This document shows positions 27,528-39,062 of a stretch of DNA of 64,000 nucleotides, piece after piece (within the stretch, counting starts at the first letter, position 1; each line of letters begins with the position of its first letter). The notes below the pieces were generated by a model. That model was given only the letters and a program-made list of their open reading frames with translations, had not been told where the DNA came from and searched no databases. Where the stretch lies: NCBI GenBank assembly GCA_017415025.1, contig JAFQJH010000002.1:1-64000 (forward strand). Reading direction: 5' to 3'. The translations under genes were made by a program, and so were the position numbers. This DNA comes from Clostridia bacterium (GTDB lineage Bacteria; Bacillota; Clostridia; Oscillospirales; Acutalibacteraceae).

Positions 27528-28877
27528 ATGGGTAAAATTCATATCCCCGGCGTTATCAAAGCAGTAAAGAAGGTCAGAGGCGGAGTTAAAGTGGCTCACC
27601 ACAAGAACACCGCAGAGCTTGAAGTAGTGCGTATGCCGGAGCCAAAACAGGTTATTTTACCTATGCAGCAACACATCGGCGCACCTTGCACACCGACAGT
27701 TAAGGTCGGCGATAAGGTCAAGGTCGGTCAGGTCATCGGTGACAGCGACAAATTCGTCAGCGCACCTATCCACGCATCAATTTCGGGTACTGTTACCGCT
27801 ATCGGCAACGTCAAGCTTCCCGGCGGTGCAATGGCACAGGGCGTTACCATTGAATCTGACGGTGAAATGCAGTTATATGAGGGCATTGAAGCACCTCGAG
27901 TTGAAACAAAAGAAGATTTTATCAATGCTATAAGAAATTCAGGTCTTGTCGGTCTCGGCGGTGCAGGCTTCCCCACACACGTCAAGCTCCGCGTTCCGCT
28001 CGAGAATCGCATCGACACACTCATCATCAATGCGGCAGAATGTGAGCCTTATATTACGGTTGACTACCGCGAATGTATAGAAAATTCCTGGGATATCTAT
28101 TCGGGCATCAGAACAATGATGGAATTCCTCGAAATTCCGAACGTTGTTATCGCAGTTGAAGATAACAAGCCCGAGGCATTCAAGATTCTTGAGCAGATTG
28201 TTGACGGTGACTCAAGTGCAAACGGCGCAATCAAGATTATGCAGCTCGAATCGCGTTACCCGCAGGGTGCCGAGAAGATGATGGTTCAGTCCGCAACGGG
28301 CAGACAGATTCCTCCCGGAAAGCTTCCGTCCGACGTCGGCTGTATGGTTATGAACGTTACTTCGGTAGCCTTTATCTCACGTTACCTCAAGACAGGTAAG
28401 CCGCTCGTCAGCCGTTCACTCACAGTTGACGGTATGGCTATCAAGGAGCCTAAGAATGTCCGCGTGCCTATCGGAACGAGCATCAGCGATATTATCGACT
28501 TCTGCGGCGGCTTCAAGGATGAGCCCGTCAAGATAATCGCGGGCGGTCCGATGATGGGTGCGGCTATCACAAGCATTGACCATCCGCTTTCAAAGAGTAA
28601 CAACGCTCTTCTTGTTTTCTCAAAAGAGGATGCAAAGGTTTTCAAGGAAACAGATTGTATCCGTTGCGGTAAATGTGCAACAGCCTGTCCGATGAGCCTT
28701 GTGCCGACGAGAATCGTCCGCAATACCAAGGCAAAGGATGCAGACGCTTTGCTCAAGGACGGCGTTATGGTTTGTATGGAATGCGGAAGCTGTGCTTATT
28801 CCTGCCCCGCAAAGAAGCCCCTTGTTCAGCATATGCGCCTTGCAAAGGCAGTTATCAGAGAGGCAGGTGCAAAATAA
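27528..28877 (+). CDS. rnfC: Ion-translocating ferredoxin:NAD reductase subunit C
   Basis: A 449-residue peripheral subunit of Rnf, the membrane complex that moves electrons from reduced ferredoxin to NAD and pumps Na+ or H+. RnfC binds FMN and NADH through a NuoF-like domain (NSGLVGLGGAGFPTHVKL near 145-163) and has two 4Fe-4S motifs near the end, CIRCGKCATACP and CMECGSCAYSCP. Length is typical of the compact clostridial form. GAAAGGGG precedes the ATG. The order rnfCDGEAB is as in Acetobacterium and Clostridium. Confidence 0.95.
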   Translation: MGKIHIPGVIKAVKKVRGGVKVAHHKNTAELEVVRMPEPKQVILPMQQHIGAPCTPTVKVGDKVKVGQVIGDSDKFVSAPIHASISGTVTAIGNVKLPGGAMAQGVTIESDGEMQLYEGIEAPRVETKEDFINAIRNSGLVGLGGAGFPTHVKLRVPLENRIDTLIINAAECEPYITVDYRECIENSWDIYSGIRTMMEFLEIPNVVIAVEDNKPEAFKILEQIVDGDSSANGAIKIMQLESRYPQGAEKMMVQSATGRQIPPGKLPSDVGCMVMNVTSVAFISRYLKTGKPLVSRSLTVDGMAIKEPKNVRVPIGTSISDIIDFCGGFKDEPVKIIAGGPMMGAAITSIDHPLSKSNNALLVFSKEDAKVFKETDCIRCGKCATACPMSLVPTRIVRNTKAKDADALLKDGVMVCMECGSCAYSCPAKKPLVQHMRLAKAVIREAGAK

Positions 28878-31783: not shown

Positions 31784-32590
31784 ATGAATCCTATTATTTT
31801 AGCTGTATTAATTGTTTCTGTCATCGGTCTTATTGCAGGTCTTGCTCTTGCCGTAGCATCAATCGTTATGGCTGTACCCGTTGACAAGAAGGCTGAAGCT
31901 ATCCGCGAATGCTTACCCGGTGCAAACTGCGGTGCTTGCGGATTCTCGGGCTGTGACGGCTACGCTTCCGCTCTTTCAAAGGGAGTTACAAAGAACACTG
32001 CACTCTGCTCACCCGGCGGCAATGACGTTTCAGCACAGATTGCTGAAATCACGGGTCTTTCCGCAGGCAACGTTGCTCCGTCAGCGGCGGTTGTAATGTG
32101 TCAGGGCTTCTGTGAAAAATCCAACACCAAAATGGTTTACAACGGTGTTGAATCCTGCCAGATGGCTAAGCAGCTTTTCGGCGGTCCGAAGGAATGTATC
32201 TACGGCTGTATCGGTCTTGGTGACTGTGTCAGAGCTTGTCCCTACGAAGCAATTCACATCTGTGACGGTGTTGCAAGAGTTAATCCTGCAATGTGTAAGG
32301 CTTGTAAGATGTGTGTCAAGACATGTCCCAACTCTCTCATCAAGATGATGCCCCTCCACGAGGCAAAGGCGGCTGTTCTTTGCGTCAACAAGGATAAGGG
32401 TGCAATCACAAAGAAGGAATGTCAGCTCGGCTGTATCGGCTGTATGAAGTGTGTCAAGGCTTGTGAGTTTGATGCAGTCAAGGTCGAAAACTTCTGCGCA
32501 AAGGTTGACTTTAACAAGTGCACAGGCTGCGGCAAGTGTACTGAGGTTTGCCCGGTTAAGTGTATCAACCTTATTACATTGGAAGATTAG
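31784..32590 (+). CDS. rnfB: Rnf complex subunit B (ferredoxin side)
   Basis: A 268-residue iron-sulfur protein that takes electrons from ferredoxin. An N-terminal membrane helix (about 5-27) is followed by the Fes-type 4Fe-4S motif GANCGACGFSGCDGYA, then several ferredoxin-type motifs: CIGLGDCVRACP, CKACKMCVKTCP, CIGCMKCVKACE and CTGCGKCTEVCP. The cluster number, about five, suits a clostridial RnfB. It ends the operon and is followed by a strong terminator. Confidence 0.96.
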   Translation: MNPIILAVLIVSVIGLIAGLALAVASIVMAVPVDKKAEAIRECLPGANCGACGFSGCDGYASALSKGVTKNTALCSPGGNDVSAQIAEITGLSAGNVAPSAAVVMCQGFCEKSNTKMVYNGVESCQMAKQLFGGPKECIYGCIGLGDCVRACPYEAIHICDGVARVNPAMCKACKMCVKTCPNSLIKMMPLHEAKAAVLCVNKDKGAITKKECQLGCIGCMKCVKACEFDAVKVENFCAKVDFNKCTGCGKCTEVCPVKCINLITLED

Positions 32591-35124: not shown

Positions 35125-35150
35125 TTCAGGGACGGAAATCCGTCCCTGAA
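35125..35150 (+). terminator. Terminator of trpS
   Basis: A perfect 12-bp stem TTCAGGGACGGA / TCCGTCCCTGAA followed by seven T. Confidence 0.9.
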
Positions 35151-35186
35151 TTTTTTTGTTTTGTGCGGTAAATTGGAGGTTGTCGC

Positions 35187-35275
35187 GCAAAGTCTTTGAC
35201 TTTGCAATGATATATCCGCAATGCGGATATGATGAATGATGTTCGCTTCGCGAATGATGTGTTTGCGTTGCAAAC
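35187..35275 (+). repeat. Tandem array of four short hairpins
   Basis: Four perfect hairpins stand in a row: GCAAAGT/ACTTTGC (35187-35205), ATATCCGC/GCGGATAT (35212-35230), TTCGC/GCGAA (35242-35254) and GTTTGC/GCAAAC (35261-35275). The spacers are 6, 11 and 6 nt and all contain TGAT. Loops are 3 to 5 nt. Confidence 0.7.
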
Positions 35276-35304
35276 ATTAAGGGGCTGCGCCGCTTTTTTA
35301 TAAA

Positions 35305-35354
35305 ATCCTCCCGTCACGGCTGTCGCCGCGCCACCCTCCTTTAGGCAAGGAGGG
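35305..35354 (+). repeat. Type B double-hairpin intergenic repeat, copy 2
   Basis: ATCCTCCCGTCACGGC, a short hairpin, GCCACCCTCC, then GGCAAGGAGGG. It is the best match to the inverted copy at 33116-33167. Confidence 0.65.
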
Positions 35355-35380
35355 CAAAGCACGAATTATAGTCATGTGAG

Positions 35381-35404
35381 GTAGGGCGGTGGCTTGCTGC
35401 CGCC
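35381..35404 (+). repeat. REP-like element, GTAG plus hairpin
   Basis: GTAG followed by GGCGG and CCGCC arms. Identical over its length to the minus-strand element at 350-373. Confidence 0.7.
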
Positions 35405-35428
35405 GAGTTTTGCAAAAAACTTATCAAT

Positions 35429-35464
35429 CCTCAGTCCTTCGGACAGCTCCTTTCCAAAGGAGCC
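35429..35464 (+). repeat. Type C hairpin repeat, copy 2
   Basis: CCTCAGTCC-TTC-GGAC, then AGCTCCTTT and AAAGGAGCC. Confidence 0.55.
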
Positions 35465-35784
35465 TGCACAGAGATAGTGACAAATAAAATTAATCTACCC
35501 TACAAATTAAAAGTTTGTGGGGTTCTTTTGACACCTCATCCGCCTCGTTCCTCGGCACCTTCCCCTCGAGGGGAAGGCTCTAAAATCACTGCTATTCAAG
35601 GCTTCTCCTTGAGGGGAGGCTCCGCCGTAGGCGGTGGTGAGGTGTAGGTTGCAACGCAACCGTTATTATTCAACATCCCTACAAATTAAAATTTGTCAGA
35701 AGTTGAGATTGCTATTGCCGCGAGGAGTATTATTCATTAAAAATTAACATTTTTTCACATAAATAGTATTATTTTATGTAGATT

Positions 35785-35812
35785 TTTACTGTAAAGTATG
35801 GTATTATATAAT
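35785..35812 (+). promoter_or_regulatory. Promoter of the hydrogenase-like cassette
   Basis: TTTACT (35785-35790), 16 nt, TATAAT (35807-35812), about 27 nt before the first ATG of the cassette. Confidence 0.55.
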
Positions 35813-35838: not shown

Positions 35839-36189
35839 ATGACGGTAAAAGAAATTGTTGAAATTCTTGACGGCACTATCGTTTACGGTGAGGACTTCCT
35901 CGACCGCGAGGTTTTTAAGGCTTGCGGCAGCGATATGATGAGTGACGTTCTTGCTTACGTTAAAGAGCAGGCTGTTCTGCTGACAGGACTTGTGAATCCG
36001 CAGGTTGTCAGAACTGCTGAAATGATGGATATGAAATGTATTGTTTTCGTCCGCGGAAAGTCTCCCGATATGGGTATGATTGACCTTGCGGAGGAGCGCG
36101 AAATCGTGCTTATCAAAACTGACCTTGAAATGTTTACATCTTGCGGTAAGCTCTACGCTCACGGTCTTAAGGGAGGCAGCGGAAAGTAA
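35839..36189 (+). CDS. DRTGG domain protein, first copy
   Basis: A 116-residue cytoplasmic protein of the DRTGG type: TVKEIVEILDGTIVYGEDFL, then SDVLAYVKEQAVLLTGLVNP and a compact alpha/beta end. DRTGG domains are found next to CBS domains and in phosphotransacetylases and are thought to bind a small ligand; none is known for stand-alone forms. A second DRTGG gene lies in the same operon. The stop overlaps the next ATG by 1 nt, so the products are probably made together. Confidence 0.8.
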   Translation: MTVKEIVEILDGTIVYGEDFLDREVFKACGSDMMSDVLAYVKEQAVLLTGLVNPQVVRTAEMMDMKCIVFVRGKSPDMGMIDLAEEREIVLIKTDLEMFTSCGKLYAHGLKGGSGK

Positions 36190-36611
36190 TGGAAGAAGTA
36201 AAACTTCATTATGACGTTAATGCCTATGACTTCACCTGCGCAGGTGAGGCCTCGGGCAAGCTGAAGCGTTCTCTGAAGGACCTCGGCTTTGATGCTTCAC
36301 TTATAAGAAGGGTTGCTATCGCTGTATACGAGGCAGAGATAAATATGGTTATCCACGCAGAGGGCGGCGTTATCGACGCAACCATTACCCCCGAATGTAT
36401 AACCGTTGTGCTTGCCGATAAGGGCCCCGGTATCCCCGACGTTGAGCTCGCTATGCAGGAGGGCTACTCCACCGCCCCCGAAAACGTGCGTTCGCTAGGC
36501 TTCGGTGCCGGTATGGGCTTACCGAACATCAAAAAATATACCGATGAGATGACTATCGACACTGAAATCGGCATCGGTACGACAATCACACTTAAAATCT
36601 GCAACAAGTAA
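36189..36611 (+). CDS. Anti-sigma factor-type ATP-binding protein
   Basis: A 140-residue GHKL-fold protein like the RsbW/SpoIIAB serine kinases. The N-box is AIAVYEAEINMVIHA (about 52-66), the G1 box ADKGPGIPD (about 88-96), and the G2 region GFGAGMGLPNIKKY. Such proteins bind ATP and either hold a sigma factor or phosphorylate an antagonist. Here there is no sigma or STAS gene; the neighbours are DRTGG and iron-sulfur proteins. That points to an unusual use of the fold in redox signalling (inference). Confidence 0.85.
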   Translation: MEEVKLHYDVNAYDFTCAGEASGKLKRSLKDLGFDASLIRRVAIAVYEAEINMVIHAEGGVIDATITPECITVVLADKGPGIPDVELAMQEGYSTAPENVRSLGFGAGMGLPNIKKYTDEMTIDTEIGIGTTITLKICNK

Positions 36612-36647
36612 TTTTATAATGATATAAATTTAAAAAGGAGGAGCAAA

Positions 36648-37982
36648 ATGAGTACTGTGTTTCATTCAGTAAGCCTTGACAAAGACAAGTGTCTGGGCTG
36701 TATGAACTGTATCAAACGCTGTCCTACTCAGGCAATTCGTGTTCGTCGCGGAAAGGCGACCATAATTTCCGAACGCTGTATTGATTGCGGTGAGTGCATT
36801 CGCATTTGTCCTCATCACGCAAAATCGGCAATGAGTGATCCTCTTTCATCCATTGAGGAATACAAATATAAAATCGCGTTGCCTGCACCGTCTCTCTACG
36901 GTCAGTTCAACAACCTTGACGATGTTAATTTTGTTCTGACAGCACTTCTCGAAATCGGATTTGACAGCGTTTTTGAGGTTGCAAAGGGAGCGGAAATCGT
37001 TTCTGATGCGACAAGAAAAATGCTTAAAACACAAAACCTTGTAAAGCCGGTTATTTCAACGGCTTGCCCTGCTGTTATACGGCTTATCCGCGTCCGCTAT
37101 CCCGAGCTTATTGATAATCTTATCACGCTCAAAACACCGATGGATGAGTCTGCGCGTCTTGCACGTATTGAAGCAAGAGAGAAAACGGGACTTTCTGACG
37201 ATGAGATAGGTGTATTTTTCATTACACCCTGCCCCGCAAAAATAACGGCTATCAAATCCCCTCTTGCCGCTGATCATACGGACGTCAACGGTGCAATCGC
37301 GATAAGCGAGGTTTATCCGCTTCTTGTTCAGAAGATGGATAAGCTCAACCGTGAAAAACTTCAATCACTTGAACAGTCGGGAAAAATCGGTGTCGGTTGG
37401 GCGGCAAGCGGCGGCGAGGCTTCAGCTTCACTGACAGAAAAATACATAGCCGCAGACGGCATTGAAAACGTTATAAAAATTCTCGAAGAGGTTGAGGACG
37501 AGAAGCTCAACGACATTGAATTTATCGAGCTTAACGCCTGTACGGGCGGTTGTGTCGGCGGTTGTCTGACAGTTGCCAATAATTTTGTTGCAAAAACGAG
37601 ATTGAGCACGCTCAAAAAGTACCTTCCCATTTCCTGCAATCACATCGAAAATGATATCCCGAAGGAACTCGGCTGGGACTATCCGCTCGAGCCTCTCTCG
37701 GTGCTTAAGCTTGCCGACAACGTTACGGATTCGATGAAGCTGATGAATCAGGTTTCGGAAATGGTTAAAAACTTCCCCGGTCTTGATTGCGGTACCTGCG
37801 GAGCACCGACCTGCCGTGCATTGGCAGAGGATATCGTCCGCGGTTATGCGAGCGTTGACGATTGCATTTTCCGCATAAGAAACGAAATGGCATCCTCCGC
37901 GGAGCTCAAGGATAACGATATTGATAAGCTTATCCCCGTACCTTTCCGCGGTATTGATGAGGAGAAATTAAAATGGACGTAA
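36648..37982 (+). CDS. [FeFe]-hydrogenase-like iron-sulfur protein, sensor type
   Basis: A 444-residue protein. Two ferredoxin-type 4Fe-4S motifs open it (Cys 15, 18, 21, 25 and 44, 47, 50, 54). The hydrogenase large-subunit domain follows with its three signatures altered: STACP (137-141), TPCPAK (193-198) and ACTGGCVGGC (297-306). The Cys ligands of the H-cluster (140, 195, 298, 302) are kept, but the proton-relay Cys of TSCCP is Ala, as reported for the sensory hydrogenase HydS of Thermotoga. A Fes-type motif, CGTCGAPTC (381-389), closes it. There is no PAS domain. It probably senses H2 or redox state rather than making H2 (inference). Confidence 0.85.
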   Translation: MSTVFHSVSLDKDKCLGCMNCIKRCPTQAIRVRRGKATIISERCIDCGECIRICPHHAKSAMSDPLSSIEEYKYKIALPAPSLYGQFNNLDDVNFVLTALLEIGFDSVFEVAKGAEIVSDATRKMLKTQNLVKPVISTACPAVIRLIRVRYPELIDNLITLKTPMDESARLARIEAREKTGLSDDEIGVFFITPCPAKITAIKSPLAADHTDVNGAIAISEVYPLLVQKMDKLNREKLQSLEQSGKIGVGWAASGGEASASLTEKYIAADGIENVIKILEEVEDEKLNDIEFIELNACTGGCVGGCLTVANNFVAKTRLSTLKKYLPISCNHIENDIPKELGWDYPLEPLSVLKLADNVTDSMKLMNQVSEMVKNFPGLDCGTCGAPTCRALAEDIVRGYASVDDCIFRIRNEMASSAELKDNDIDKLIPVPFRGIDEEKLKWT

Positions 37983-38299
37983 AAGAACTTATTGAAAAGC
38001 TTGACCTTAAGGTGCTTTGCGGTGAAAGCCTTGACAGAAAAGTAACCGGTTGCTATTGCGGAGATCTGCTGAGCTGGGTTATGTCGCGCGCACAGGAGGG
38101 CGACGTATGGCTGACGGTTATGGGCAATATCAACTCCGTCGGTGTTGCCGTGCTTGCAGACGTTGCATGTATCGTTCTTACCGAAAACGCGGCACTTGAC
38201 GCTGATGCACTTAACCGCGCAAAGCAGAATGACGTTATTATTCTGCAGACAGAGAAAAATTCTTATCAGATTGCTGCTGCTATTTCGAAGTTGATTTAA
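37973..38299 (+). CDS. DRTGG domain protein, second copy
   Basis: A 108-residue DRTGG-type protein, distantly related to the first protein of the operon. It opens MDVKELIEKLDLKVLCGESL and carries VTGCYCGDLLSWVMSRAQEG, which holds the domain's Asp and Ser/Trp positions, then a Val/Ala-rich core. The start overlaps the hydrogenase-like gene by 10 nt and the next gene begins 1 nt after the stop, so coupling is tight. Confidence 0.78.
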   Translation: MDVKELIEKLDLKVLCGESLDRKVTGCYCGDLLSWVMSRAQEGDVWLTVMGNINSVGVAVLADVACIVLTENAALDADALNRAKQNDVIILQTEKNSYQIAAAISKLI

Positions 38300-38300
38300 A

Positions 38301-39029
38301 ATGAAGCTTTATTACGACTTTCATACACATTCCTGTCTCTCCCCCTGCGGTGACAAGGATATGACACCGTACAACCTCGTTAATATGTCAAAGCTCCTCG
38401 GTCTTGATATTATTGCCCTGACTGACCATAATACCTGTAAAAACTGTGAATCAGCAATCAAGGTCGGTGAGGAAATCGGACTGACGGTCATTCCCGGAAT
38501 GGAGCTTTGCACATCAGAAGAGGTACACGTGGTCTGTCTGTTCCCTGATTGTGAGAGCGCGATGAGCTTTTCAGATTACATTCACACGGCGATGCCTCCC
38601 ATGCAAAACCGTCCCGATATTTTCGGTGAACAGCTCGTTATGGACGAGTGCGACAATGCTATCGGCACGGAGGAAATCCTGCTGACTCTTGCAAGCTCGG
38701 TGAGTATAAGCAACGTTTGCGAGCTTGTCGAAAGCTACGGCGGTGTCTGCTATCCCGCACACATCGACCGAAGCTCTTACAGCGTGCTGTCAAACCTCGG
38801 TATGATTACCGAAGATATGGGCTTTCGCGCCGTAGAAATGACAGCCGATGCAGACAGAGAGACGCTCATAAAAAATCACCCCATACTTGACGGGGCGAAA
38901 ATTTTTGTTGATTCGGATGCGCATTACCTCGAGAACCTTAAGGATGCACAGAATATAATCGACCTACCCGAAAACAGTGCAAGGGCGGTTATTGATTATA
39001 TTAAAGCTCTGCCAAAATTGCATATATAA
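38301..39029 (+). CDS. PHP domain phosphoesterase
   Basis: A 242-residue metal-dependent phosphoesterase of the PHP superfamily. The four motifs are seen: HTHS (8-11), LTDHNT (about 40), a Glu in GMELCTSEEVHV (about 64), and CYPAHIDRS plus DSDAHYLENL later. PHP enzymes hydrolyse small phosphates such as histidinol phosphate, or nucleotides. In this operon it could remove a signal made or bound by the neighbours (inference). A terminator follows. Confidence 0.85.
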   Translation: MKLYYDFHTHSCLSPCGDKDMTPYNLVNMSKLLGLDIIALTDHNTCKNCESAIKVGEEIGLTVIPGMELCTSEEVHVVCLFPDCESAMSFSDYIHTAMPPMQNRPDIFGEQLVMDECDNAIGTEEILLTLASSVSISNVCELVESYGGVCYPAHIDRSSYSVLSNLGMITEDMGFRAVEMTADADRETLIKNHPILDGAKIFVDSDAHYLENLKDAQNIIDLPENSARAVIDYIKALPKLHI

Positions 39030-39035
39030 CAACAA

Positions 39036-39062
39036 AACGGCTTGCTGAAATAGCAGGCCGTT
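39036..39062. terminator. Terminator between PHP gene and tarJ
   Basis: AACGGC-TTGCT and AGCAG-GCCGTT pair with one mismatch around a 5-nt loop. The flanking genes converge. Confidence 0.65.

Follow-up and report, generated by a model that had tools for sequence, protein, structure and literature searches.

Group D (M2e) [FeFe] hydrogenases have already been proposed to be sensory, among them TamHydS of Thermoanaerobacter mathranii (PMC8163306, PMC11803613; here and below, papers are cited for the passages that concern these enzymes). TamHydS is a slow enzyme, and H2 fails to reduce its C-terminal cluster (PMC11803613, PMC13104023); H2 induces a change in its secondary structure, and its interaction partner is described as unidentified in a 2026 paper that calls the identification of its partners critical (PMC13104023). 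Here we present a five-gene cassette built around a protein of this type, found at positions 35839-39029 in a 64,000-nucleotide stretch of DNA (hereafter the window; contig JAFQJH010000002.1, positions 1 to 64,000, forward strand) from a clostridial genome assembly (GCA_017415025.1; 2.09 Mb, 83.6% complete, to which extent alone genome-wide absences reported below hold). The cassette codes for a DRTGG-domain protein (DRTGG1), a GHKL ATPase, the hydrogenase-like protein (HydS), a second DRTGG-domain protein (DRTGG2) and a PHP-family phosphoesterase. With somewhat more confidence than doubt, we posit that it is a redox- or H2-gated kinase/phosphatase switch for protein modification, in which DRTGG proteins would be used in place of STAS proteins. 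The module is a well-conserved setting of a known protein type, its novelty lying in the evidence for partners of the sensor and in a branch that probably dispenses with hydrogen chemistry.

All five open reading frames were confirmed on the plus strand, and the Pfam matches of their products all exceed the curated cut-offs. DRTGG1 (116 residues, 35839-36189; PF07085, 31.3 bits against a cut-off of 25.2) bears the motif D32-x-x-S35-D36, and its gene shares one base with that of the SpoIIAB/RsbW-like ATPase (140 residues, 36189-36611; PF13581 or HATPase_c_2, 42 bits), which has Glu48 and Asn52 in its N-box. After a gap of 36 bp follows the gene for HydS (444 residues, 36648-37982; PF02906 or Fe_hyd_lg_C, 115 bits; PF04060 or FeS, 49.6 bits; Fer4 also matched), overlapping by 10 bp that for DRTGG2 (108 residues, 37973-38299; PF07085, 38.2 bits; motif D31-L-L-S34); 1 bp further begins the gene for the PHP-family metal-dependent phosphoesterase (242 residues, 38301-39029; PF02811, 34.9 bits). 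By this layout the five genes form a single operon, just as the original prediction, made from the DNA letters alone, had read them. DRTGG1 and DRTGG2 are the sole DRTGG matches in the genome. Against the two nearest named relatives, clostridial metagenome-assembled genomes from sheep and water deer gut with 96% and 91% HydS identity, dN/dS is 0.02-0.11 across all five genes, values that are rough, dS being close to 1 or higher for the majority of pairs.

The order of the genes, whose conservation the original prediction had proposed to check, is kept across many anaerobic clostridia. We assembled 184 loci with a HydS scoring above 380 bits, 80 of them on named contigs and the other 104 comprising the window and loci of same-phylum genomes, for which part of the matches was retrieved; L021, L197, L198 and L199, whose HydS was broken or scored low, and duplicates were left out. 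Using a DRTGG model built from proteins of 90-135 residues, we found the order DRTGG-ATPase-HydS-DRTGG-PHP on one strand in 158 of the 184 (76/80 named-contig loci and 82/104 others), which rules out a chance clustering of the five genes. Eight of these ordered loci have DRTGG1 and the ATPase fused and four have an extra upstream PHP gene; across the 146 plain loci the median gaps are -4, 24, -4 and -4 bp, which look small because starts were set at the first possible codon. A second, longer PHP gene (~290-312 residues) was seen upstream of the cassette in L048, L051, L056, L061 and L072.

Gene fusions, sought by a scan of the open frames in all retrieved loci, point to physical contacts among the products. 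DRTGG1 is fused to the ATPase in eight loci of families f95, f44 and f74 (L029, L030, L123, L130, L143, L145, L147, L173), the ATPase to HydS in one (L189 of f111), and HydS to DRTGG2 in two (L128 and L134, both of f40). The 635-residue ATPase-HydS frame was confirmed by Pfam to contain both HATPase_c and Fe_hyd_lg_C and, judged by eye, keeps E48 with E50 replaced. Together the fused partners reproduce the gene order, which suggests that DRTGG1, the ATPase, HydS and DRTGG2 are probably in contact with one another and, on this genomic evidence, probably form one unit. Partial sets of the genes, such as HydS-DRTGG2 in L151 and L154, agree with these contacts. A further set, the ATPase-HydS pair of family f82 (L233, L234, L235), adjoins an OmpR-type response regulator and a ~915-residue Cache/GAF histidine kinase (identified in L233 by Pfam and in the other two by script, with similar sizes), a setting that we count in favor of the proposed switch.

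HydS itself fits, by its residues, the published group D (M2e) enzymes of the TamHydS type (criteria in PMC8163306, PMC10407848 and PMC11803613), an assignment made from published marks alone. It is laid out as two N-terminal [4Fe-4S] motifs, an H-domain and a C-terminal Cx2Cx4Cx16C motif (C381/C384/C389/C406), and the cluster ligands C140, C195, C298 and C302, along with K198 and the STACP motif, are present as had been claimed. The relay cysteine (C299 of CpI) is replaced by A139, and M353 by a hydroxyl residue, T193. When TamHydS residues are mapped by motif and a constant offset alone, the pairs A137/A139 and S191/T193 are alike, as are the residues of the group D proton path (E252/E257, E289/E294, S249/S254, D265/D270, TamHydS given first), the one difference noted being L291 of TamHydS, which is N296 here. 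No PAS domain, the mark of group C, was matched at E <= 0.1 with Pfam; the score against the group A model TIGR02512 is 101.7 bits, the cut-off being 405.95, and that against TIGR04105 is far below its cut-off. The likeness to the sensory HydS of Thermotoga suggested originally thus gives way to a better comparator, the PAS-less group D TamHydS, the Thermotoga protein being of group C and bearing a PAS domain. Given that the maturase genes for HydE, HydG and HydF lie side by side in the window's genome, its HydS may carry an H-cluster and may sense H2, as in other maturase-bearing lineages.

The residues kept in the other products suggest what such a sensor might control. All 171 ATPase homologues have E48, E50, N52 and H56, and their G1- and G2-box glycines are conserved at or near 100%; in an alignment with SpoIIAB (chain 1th8_A), E48 and N52 fall opposite its N-box Glu and Asn, the Glu being the catalytic base there. 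With 55.2 bits against the SpoIIAB model TIGR01925 (cut-off 135), the protein nevertheless scores far too low for that family. DRTGG1 and DRTGG2 are homologous (HHalign probability 99.7) and have in common a near-invariant D-x-x-S, its Ser and Asp being kept in 100% (S35) and 99% (D32) of 156 homologues of the former and each in 99% (S34, D31) of 171 of the latter; the DRTGG domain of E. coli Pta, the one control protein and weakly aligned, shows Arg in place of the Asp and Pro in place of the Ser. In the PHP protein, H8, H10, D42, H43, E68, H76, H154, D206 and H208, which we take to be metal ligands, are kept in 96-100% of 168 homologues. Such conservation is compatible with one putative kinase, two candidate phospho-acceptors and one putative phosphatase, phosphorylation itself being inferred.

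We accordingly envisage HydS as the sensor that would contact the GHKL ATPase directly and alter its activity. The ATPase would act as a SpoIIAB-like serine kinase on DRTGG1 and DRTGG2, probably at the Ser of the D-x-x-S motif, and the PHP protein would remove the phospho mark, such that the DRTGG proteins would hold the role of the STAS proteins of the SpoIIA/Rsb systems and PHP that of PP2C. The signal would probably be directed at a NuoE/NuoF-type enzyme, either a HydABC hydrogenase or a formate dehydrogenase. Consistent with the earlier remark that the ATPase has neither a sigma nor a STAS gene beside it, Pfam finds no sigma, STAS or PP2C gene in the cassette, which thereby falls outside the SpoIIA/Rsb type defined by a STAS antagonist and PP2C with the kinase. 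A partner encoded elsewhere, which had been named as an explanation that would undo the proposal, was also sought: a STAS search of the 83.6%-complete genome gave a single match, between spoIIAB- and sigF-like genes (names read by eye), and no STAS gene outside this spoIIA-like operon, so the proposal is not undone on that account.

A rather improbable alternative has the PHP protein making or destroying a nucleotide bound by the DRTGG proteins, with HydS and the ATPase setting its level. It draws on the profile of PHP, whose nearest solved relatives include nucleases and other phosphoesterases and whose NCBIfam matches are all under cut-off, and on the C-terminal halves of DRTGG1 and DRTGG2, which weakly resemble the DRTGG part of a CBS-type pyrophosphatase (E 0.0006 and 0.015, respectively); DRTGG-type domains of this kind can bind nucleotides. 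Nevertheless, it leaves both the common D-x-x-S motif and the DRTGG1-ATPase fusion unexplained, and the cassette contains no synthetase gene. This alternative and those below differ from the proposed switch in signal or output only, and the probabilities we assign overlap both among themselves and with that of the switch.

The genes around the cassette bear on its target. Among the 184 loci, neighbors include NuoE (115), a small HATPase of ~183 residues (92), a 2Fe-2S protein (77), HydB (94) and a HydA-like cluster (77) that also takes in short formate dehydrogenase pieces, all of them minimum counts, since short loci are numerous. Often the five genes open a longer operon that continues with NuoE, the small HATPase, the 2Fe-2S protein, HydB and HydA; in the window's genome these latter genes lie together on another contig (C2), where they were read by eye from the openings of homologous proteins and HydA by PF02906. 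In C. thermocellum, C. phytofermentans, two Caldicellulosiruptor and Caldanaerobacter, the group D gene is five locus tags from HydABC (PMC3561251, Table 6), a distance that the order cassette-then-HydABC predicts. The small stand-alone HATPase (for example, L168:9514-10062) has Asp at the N-box Glu position and adjoins the cassette even where NuoEF is absent. At three loci of family f35, it is alone beside the cassette, with no NuoEF or HydA within ~7 kb.

Elsewhere the neighbor is a molybdopterin enzyme. Considering only loci with wide flanks, its gene stands beside or after the NuoEF genes in 10/28 loci of genomes without the hydrogenase maturases and in 3/47 maturase-positive ones, running opposite to the cassette in family f19. 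For L190, L181, L126 and the front piece in L152, Pfam and NCBIfam matches point to formate dehydrogenase, that of L181 exceeding the NCBIfam cut-off, and an in-frame stop, probably a selenocysteine TGA, divides the gene. We also observed the order cassette, NuoE, small HATPase, 2Fe-2S protein, NuoF and a split member of the formate dehydrogenase cluster in L190, L181, L126, L172, L179 and L182, the first three of which were covered by the family search. The association of formate dehydrogenase with missing maturases has a Fisher p of 0.003 when relatedness is ignored, but is not significant in a sign test on the HydS tree. Four of the ten maturase-less loci belong to f19 and three to f59, and all three maturase-positive ones are from these same two families; hence, the link follows lineage at least as much as it does the missing maturases. 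The cassette accompanies NuoEF-type enzymes alike whether the product is H2 or formate.

These neighborhoods allow two further readings. In the first, HydS would sense H2 alone and govern bifurcating-hydrogenase transcription through the ATPase and a further regulator, as has been proposed for TamHydS (PMC8163306) and for group D genes lying close to kinases and bifurcating hydrogenases (PMC3561251). The frequencies of NuoE, HydB and HydA-like neighbors and the three maturases of the window's genome speak for it; against it stand the lack of any DNA-binding domain in the cassette proteins by Pfam, and the occurrence of cassettes in maturase-less genomes, some of which have lost K198 and E257, and on balance we hold it to be unlikely. 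In the second, the cassette would serve to assemble or repair NuoEF-type complexes: the ATPase and DRTGG proteins would be chaperones, HydS would donate electrons or carry clusters, and PHP would be a hydrolase. The frequent presence of NuoE-HydB-HydA or FdhA would suit it, and GHKL ATPases can act as chaperones. We find it the least probable of the readings, in view of the SpoIIAB-like character of the ATPase, the three f35 loci devoid of nearby NuoEF and HydA, and the f82 pair beside a two-component system.

The distribution of the maturases indicates that the signal need not be the same everywhere. In 117 same-phylum genomes with a strong HydS (E <= 1e-80), HydG is absent at E <= 1e-60 from 36, of which 36 also lack HydE and 35 lack HydF (E <= 1e-45), giving 35/117 genomes without a match to any of the three. 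A loose HydG threshold (1e-20) brings up matches in 8/36, all under the curated cut-off and probably representing ThiH, which also makes E. coli give a signal. Five control genomes were positive for HydE and HydF, with HydG exceeding the cut-off in four of them and split in the remaining one. Assembly gaps surely account for some of the absences, such as that in G168, whose HydS stands beside near-identical ones of maturase-positive genomes; 24 of the 36 HydG-less genomes are at least 95% complete, and other absences are consistent within a family. Family f35 shows this most clearly. Of its 20 genomes, three carry a group A hydrogenase, and HydF occurs in those three alone; five have the cassette HydS only, without HydF, and twelve have neither H-domain protein. 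The five cassette genomes retain all five genes, with Gln at K198 in 5/5 and Gln at E257 in the three that are present in the alignment.

All 16 iron-sulfur cysteines are kept in 184/184 HydS proteins. K198 is kept in 73/73 maturase-positive loci (defined by a HydG match, G153 with HydF only being counted with them), in 80/80 named-contig loci, which stood outside the maturase search, and in 26/31 maturase-less ones; the corresponding figures for E257 are 72/73, 79/80 and 27/31. The dependence of K198 loss on maturase status (Fisher p 0.0018, relatedness ignored) comes down on the HydS tree to three losses, always in maturase-less genomes, for which the sign test is not significant, and G027 and G052, which account for two of the three, sit on long branches; we regard the restriction of these losses to maturase-less genomes as suggestive. 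These data bear on a reading in which HydS is an iron-sulfur redox sensor throughout, its H-domain a relic and its H2 turnover incidental, reporting the ferredoxin/NADH state to NuoEF-type enzymes. The maturase-less genomes, the invariant cysteines, the Gln-bearing f35 proteins and the sluggish TamHydS with its C-terminal cluster unreduced by H2 (PMC11803613, PMC13104023) all lend it some weight. Conversely, the retention of K198 and E257 implies that H-cluster residues are under selection in most lineages, and the K198 losses amount to only three independent events, not significant once relatedness is counted; as a general account we consider it about as unlikely as a pure H2 sensor.

Several observations weigh against the switch that we favor. 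The absence of HydEFG need not mean the absence of an H-cluster, as many maturase-less genomes have an intact-looking HydA: in the 15 in which a group A HydA was found, the third motif is kept in 15/15 and MPC..K in 14/15, and both are also present in G024 and G254 (the first-motif pattern failed in most sequences, controls included, and that motif was seen in few). Maturase absence as proof of a missing H-cluster is weakened to that degree, and an unknown maturation route or assembly gaps are both possible; we also observed group A HydA with intact-looking second and third motifs and no HydE, HydF or HydG match in, for example, G016, G020, G062, G234 and G288, which are 97-100% complete. Further, 26/184 loci deviate from the gene order, although six of these are cut by a contig end (L061, L091, L132, L135, L156, L188), some have merely 1.5 kb of flank, and L128 and L134 are the HydS-DRTGG2 fusions with order unchanged. 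The f82 pair lacks both DRTGG and PHP; in L151 and L154, HydS-DRTGG2 leads the HydABC operon without DRTGG1, the ATPase or PHP, albeit in genomes with another, ATPase-bearing copy (L140, L141); and DRTGG2 and PHP are absent 3' of HydS in L106 and L112 despite long flanks. The open-frame scan yielded no fusion involving PHP, whose kinship to nucleases and other phosphoesterases is noted above, and sequencing errors in draft genomes could account for some of the fusions, chiefly the single ATPase-HydS case. The invariant Ser of D-x-x-S may be structural or ligand-binding. Finally, under ethanol stress the expression of the C. thermocellum group D gene Cthe_0335 is unlike that of Cthe_0340-0342 (PMC3478167), such that shared regulation with HydABC is not evident there.

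Eight of the 117 genomes (G028, G052, G104, G138, G154, G173, G223, G295) are clean cases with neither maturase nor group A match, compared by hand with group A scoring of at most six candidates per genome. We conclude that H2 is probably not always the signal, that some cassettes probably no longer handle hydrogen, and that in at least one lineage lacking maturases HydS probably responds to redox state through iron-sulfur clusters alone. The interpretation offered by the original prediction is therefore partly supported: a sensing cassette with kinase-like output is, through the conserved order and the fusions, better supported than the DNA letters alone could show, but H2 is probably not its general signal, given the maturase-less genomes and the K198 losses in some of them. 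A bolder and more tentative extension, to which we accord clearly less than even chances, is that the cassette represents a new kind of switch in which an H-domain iron-sulfur protein would directly drive a SpoIIAB-like kinase acting on DRTGG proteins, with resetting by PHP, in the service of NuoEF-type hydrogenases and formate dehydrogenases and without STAS, PP2C, PAS or sigma components, and that some lineages shed the hydrogen chemistry and kept the whole switch.

Around the window's cassette, a consensus scan picked out a promoter-like TTTACT-16-TATAAT site on the plus strand (35785-35812), a pattern match only, 5' of the operon and within a proximal block conserved in the two nearest relatives (L042 and L043), and a terminator-like hairpin (39036-39062, plus strand; 12-pair stem, loop of 3, weak T tail) lies 3' of the last gene; such patterns are only ~1.4 and 2.8 times, respectively, as frequent as in shuffled sequence. 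The intergenic region 35150-35700, between a tryptophan-tRNA-synthetase-like gene and the cassette, contains several inverted repeats and terminator-like hairpins, and the part from 35500 to ~35740 aligns badly with both relatives. Further upstream, Pfam detects RnfC (27528-28877) and an RnfB-like FeS/Fer4 protein (31784-32590); weak matches at comparable spacing to these Rnf-like genes are also present upstream in L042.

In searches of open-licence papers, we found neither the five-gene module, its fusions and its maturase-less branch nor any report of hydrogenases without maturases. The fusions name the GHKL ATPase and the two DRTGG proteins as candidate partners for signal relay by group D enzymes, and the five-gene set suggests how sensory hydrogenases pass on their signal. 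The maturase-less branch offers a natural experiment on H2 versus redox sensing, and it cautions that a group D gene in a metagenome need not signal H2 metabolism.

Among described systems, TamHydS is the closest, having the same domain order, the lack of PAS, the Cx2Cx4Cx16C motif and, as reported, an adjacent gene for a histidine-kinase-like ATPase. Its other neighbor is named as an AraC-family regulator, where the window has DRTGG2, and it is our guess that the two annotations mean the same gene; the passages on TamHydS leave DRTGG and PHP unmentioned. HydABC, for its part, is on another contig in the window's genome. The group C HydS (M2f) of Thermotoga maritima, in the passages describing it, likewise has two N-terminal clusters, a C-terminal cluster motif and a lost relay Cys, but differs in its PAS domain. 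A cubane-only H-domain, the probable state in maturase-less cassettes such as those of f35, would resemble that of Nar1/NARF-type proteins, which lack the [2Fe] subcluster; the likeness is one of described properties, and those are eukaryotic iron-sulfur assembly proteins, whereas here the setting is a bacterial signaling-type operon. With the SpoIIAB-SpoIIAA-SpoIIE and RsbW-RsbV-RsbU switches, the cassette has in common a GHKL protein with N-box Glu and Asn, a small partner with an invariant Ser and a phosphatase-like gene, and it departs from them in having no STAS protein, sigma factor or PP2C and in an ATPase that reaches 55 of the 135 bits required for SpoIIAB.

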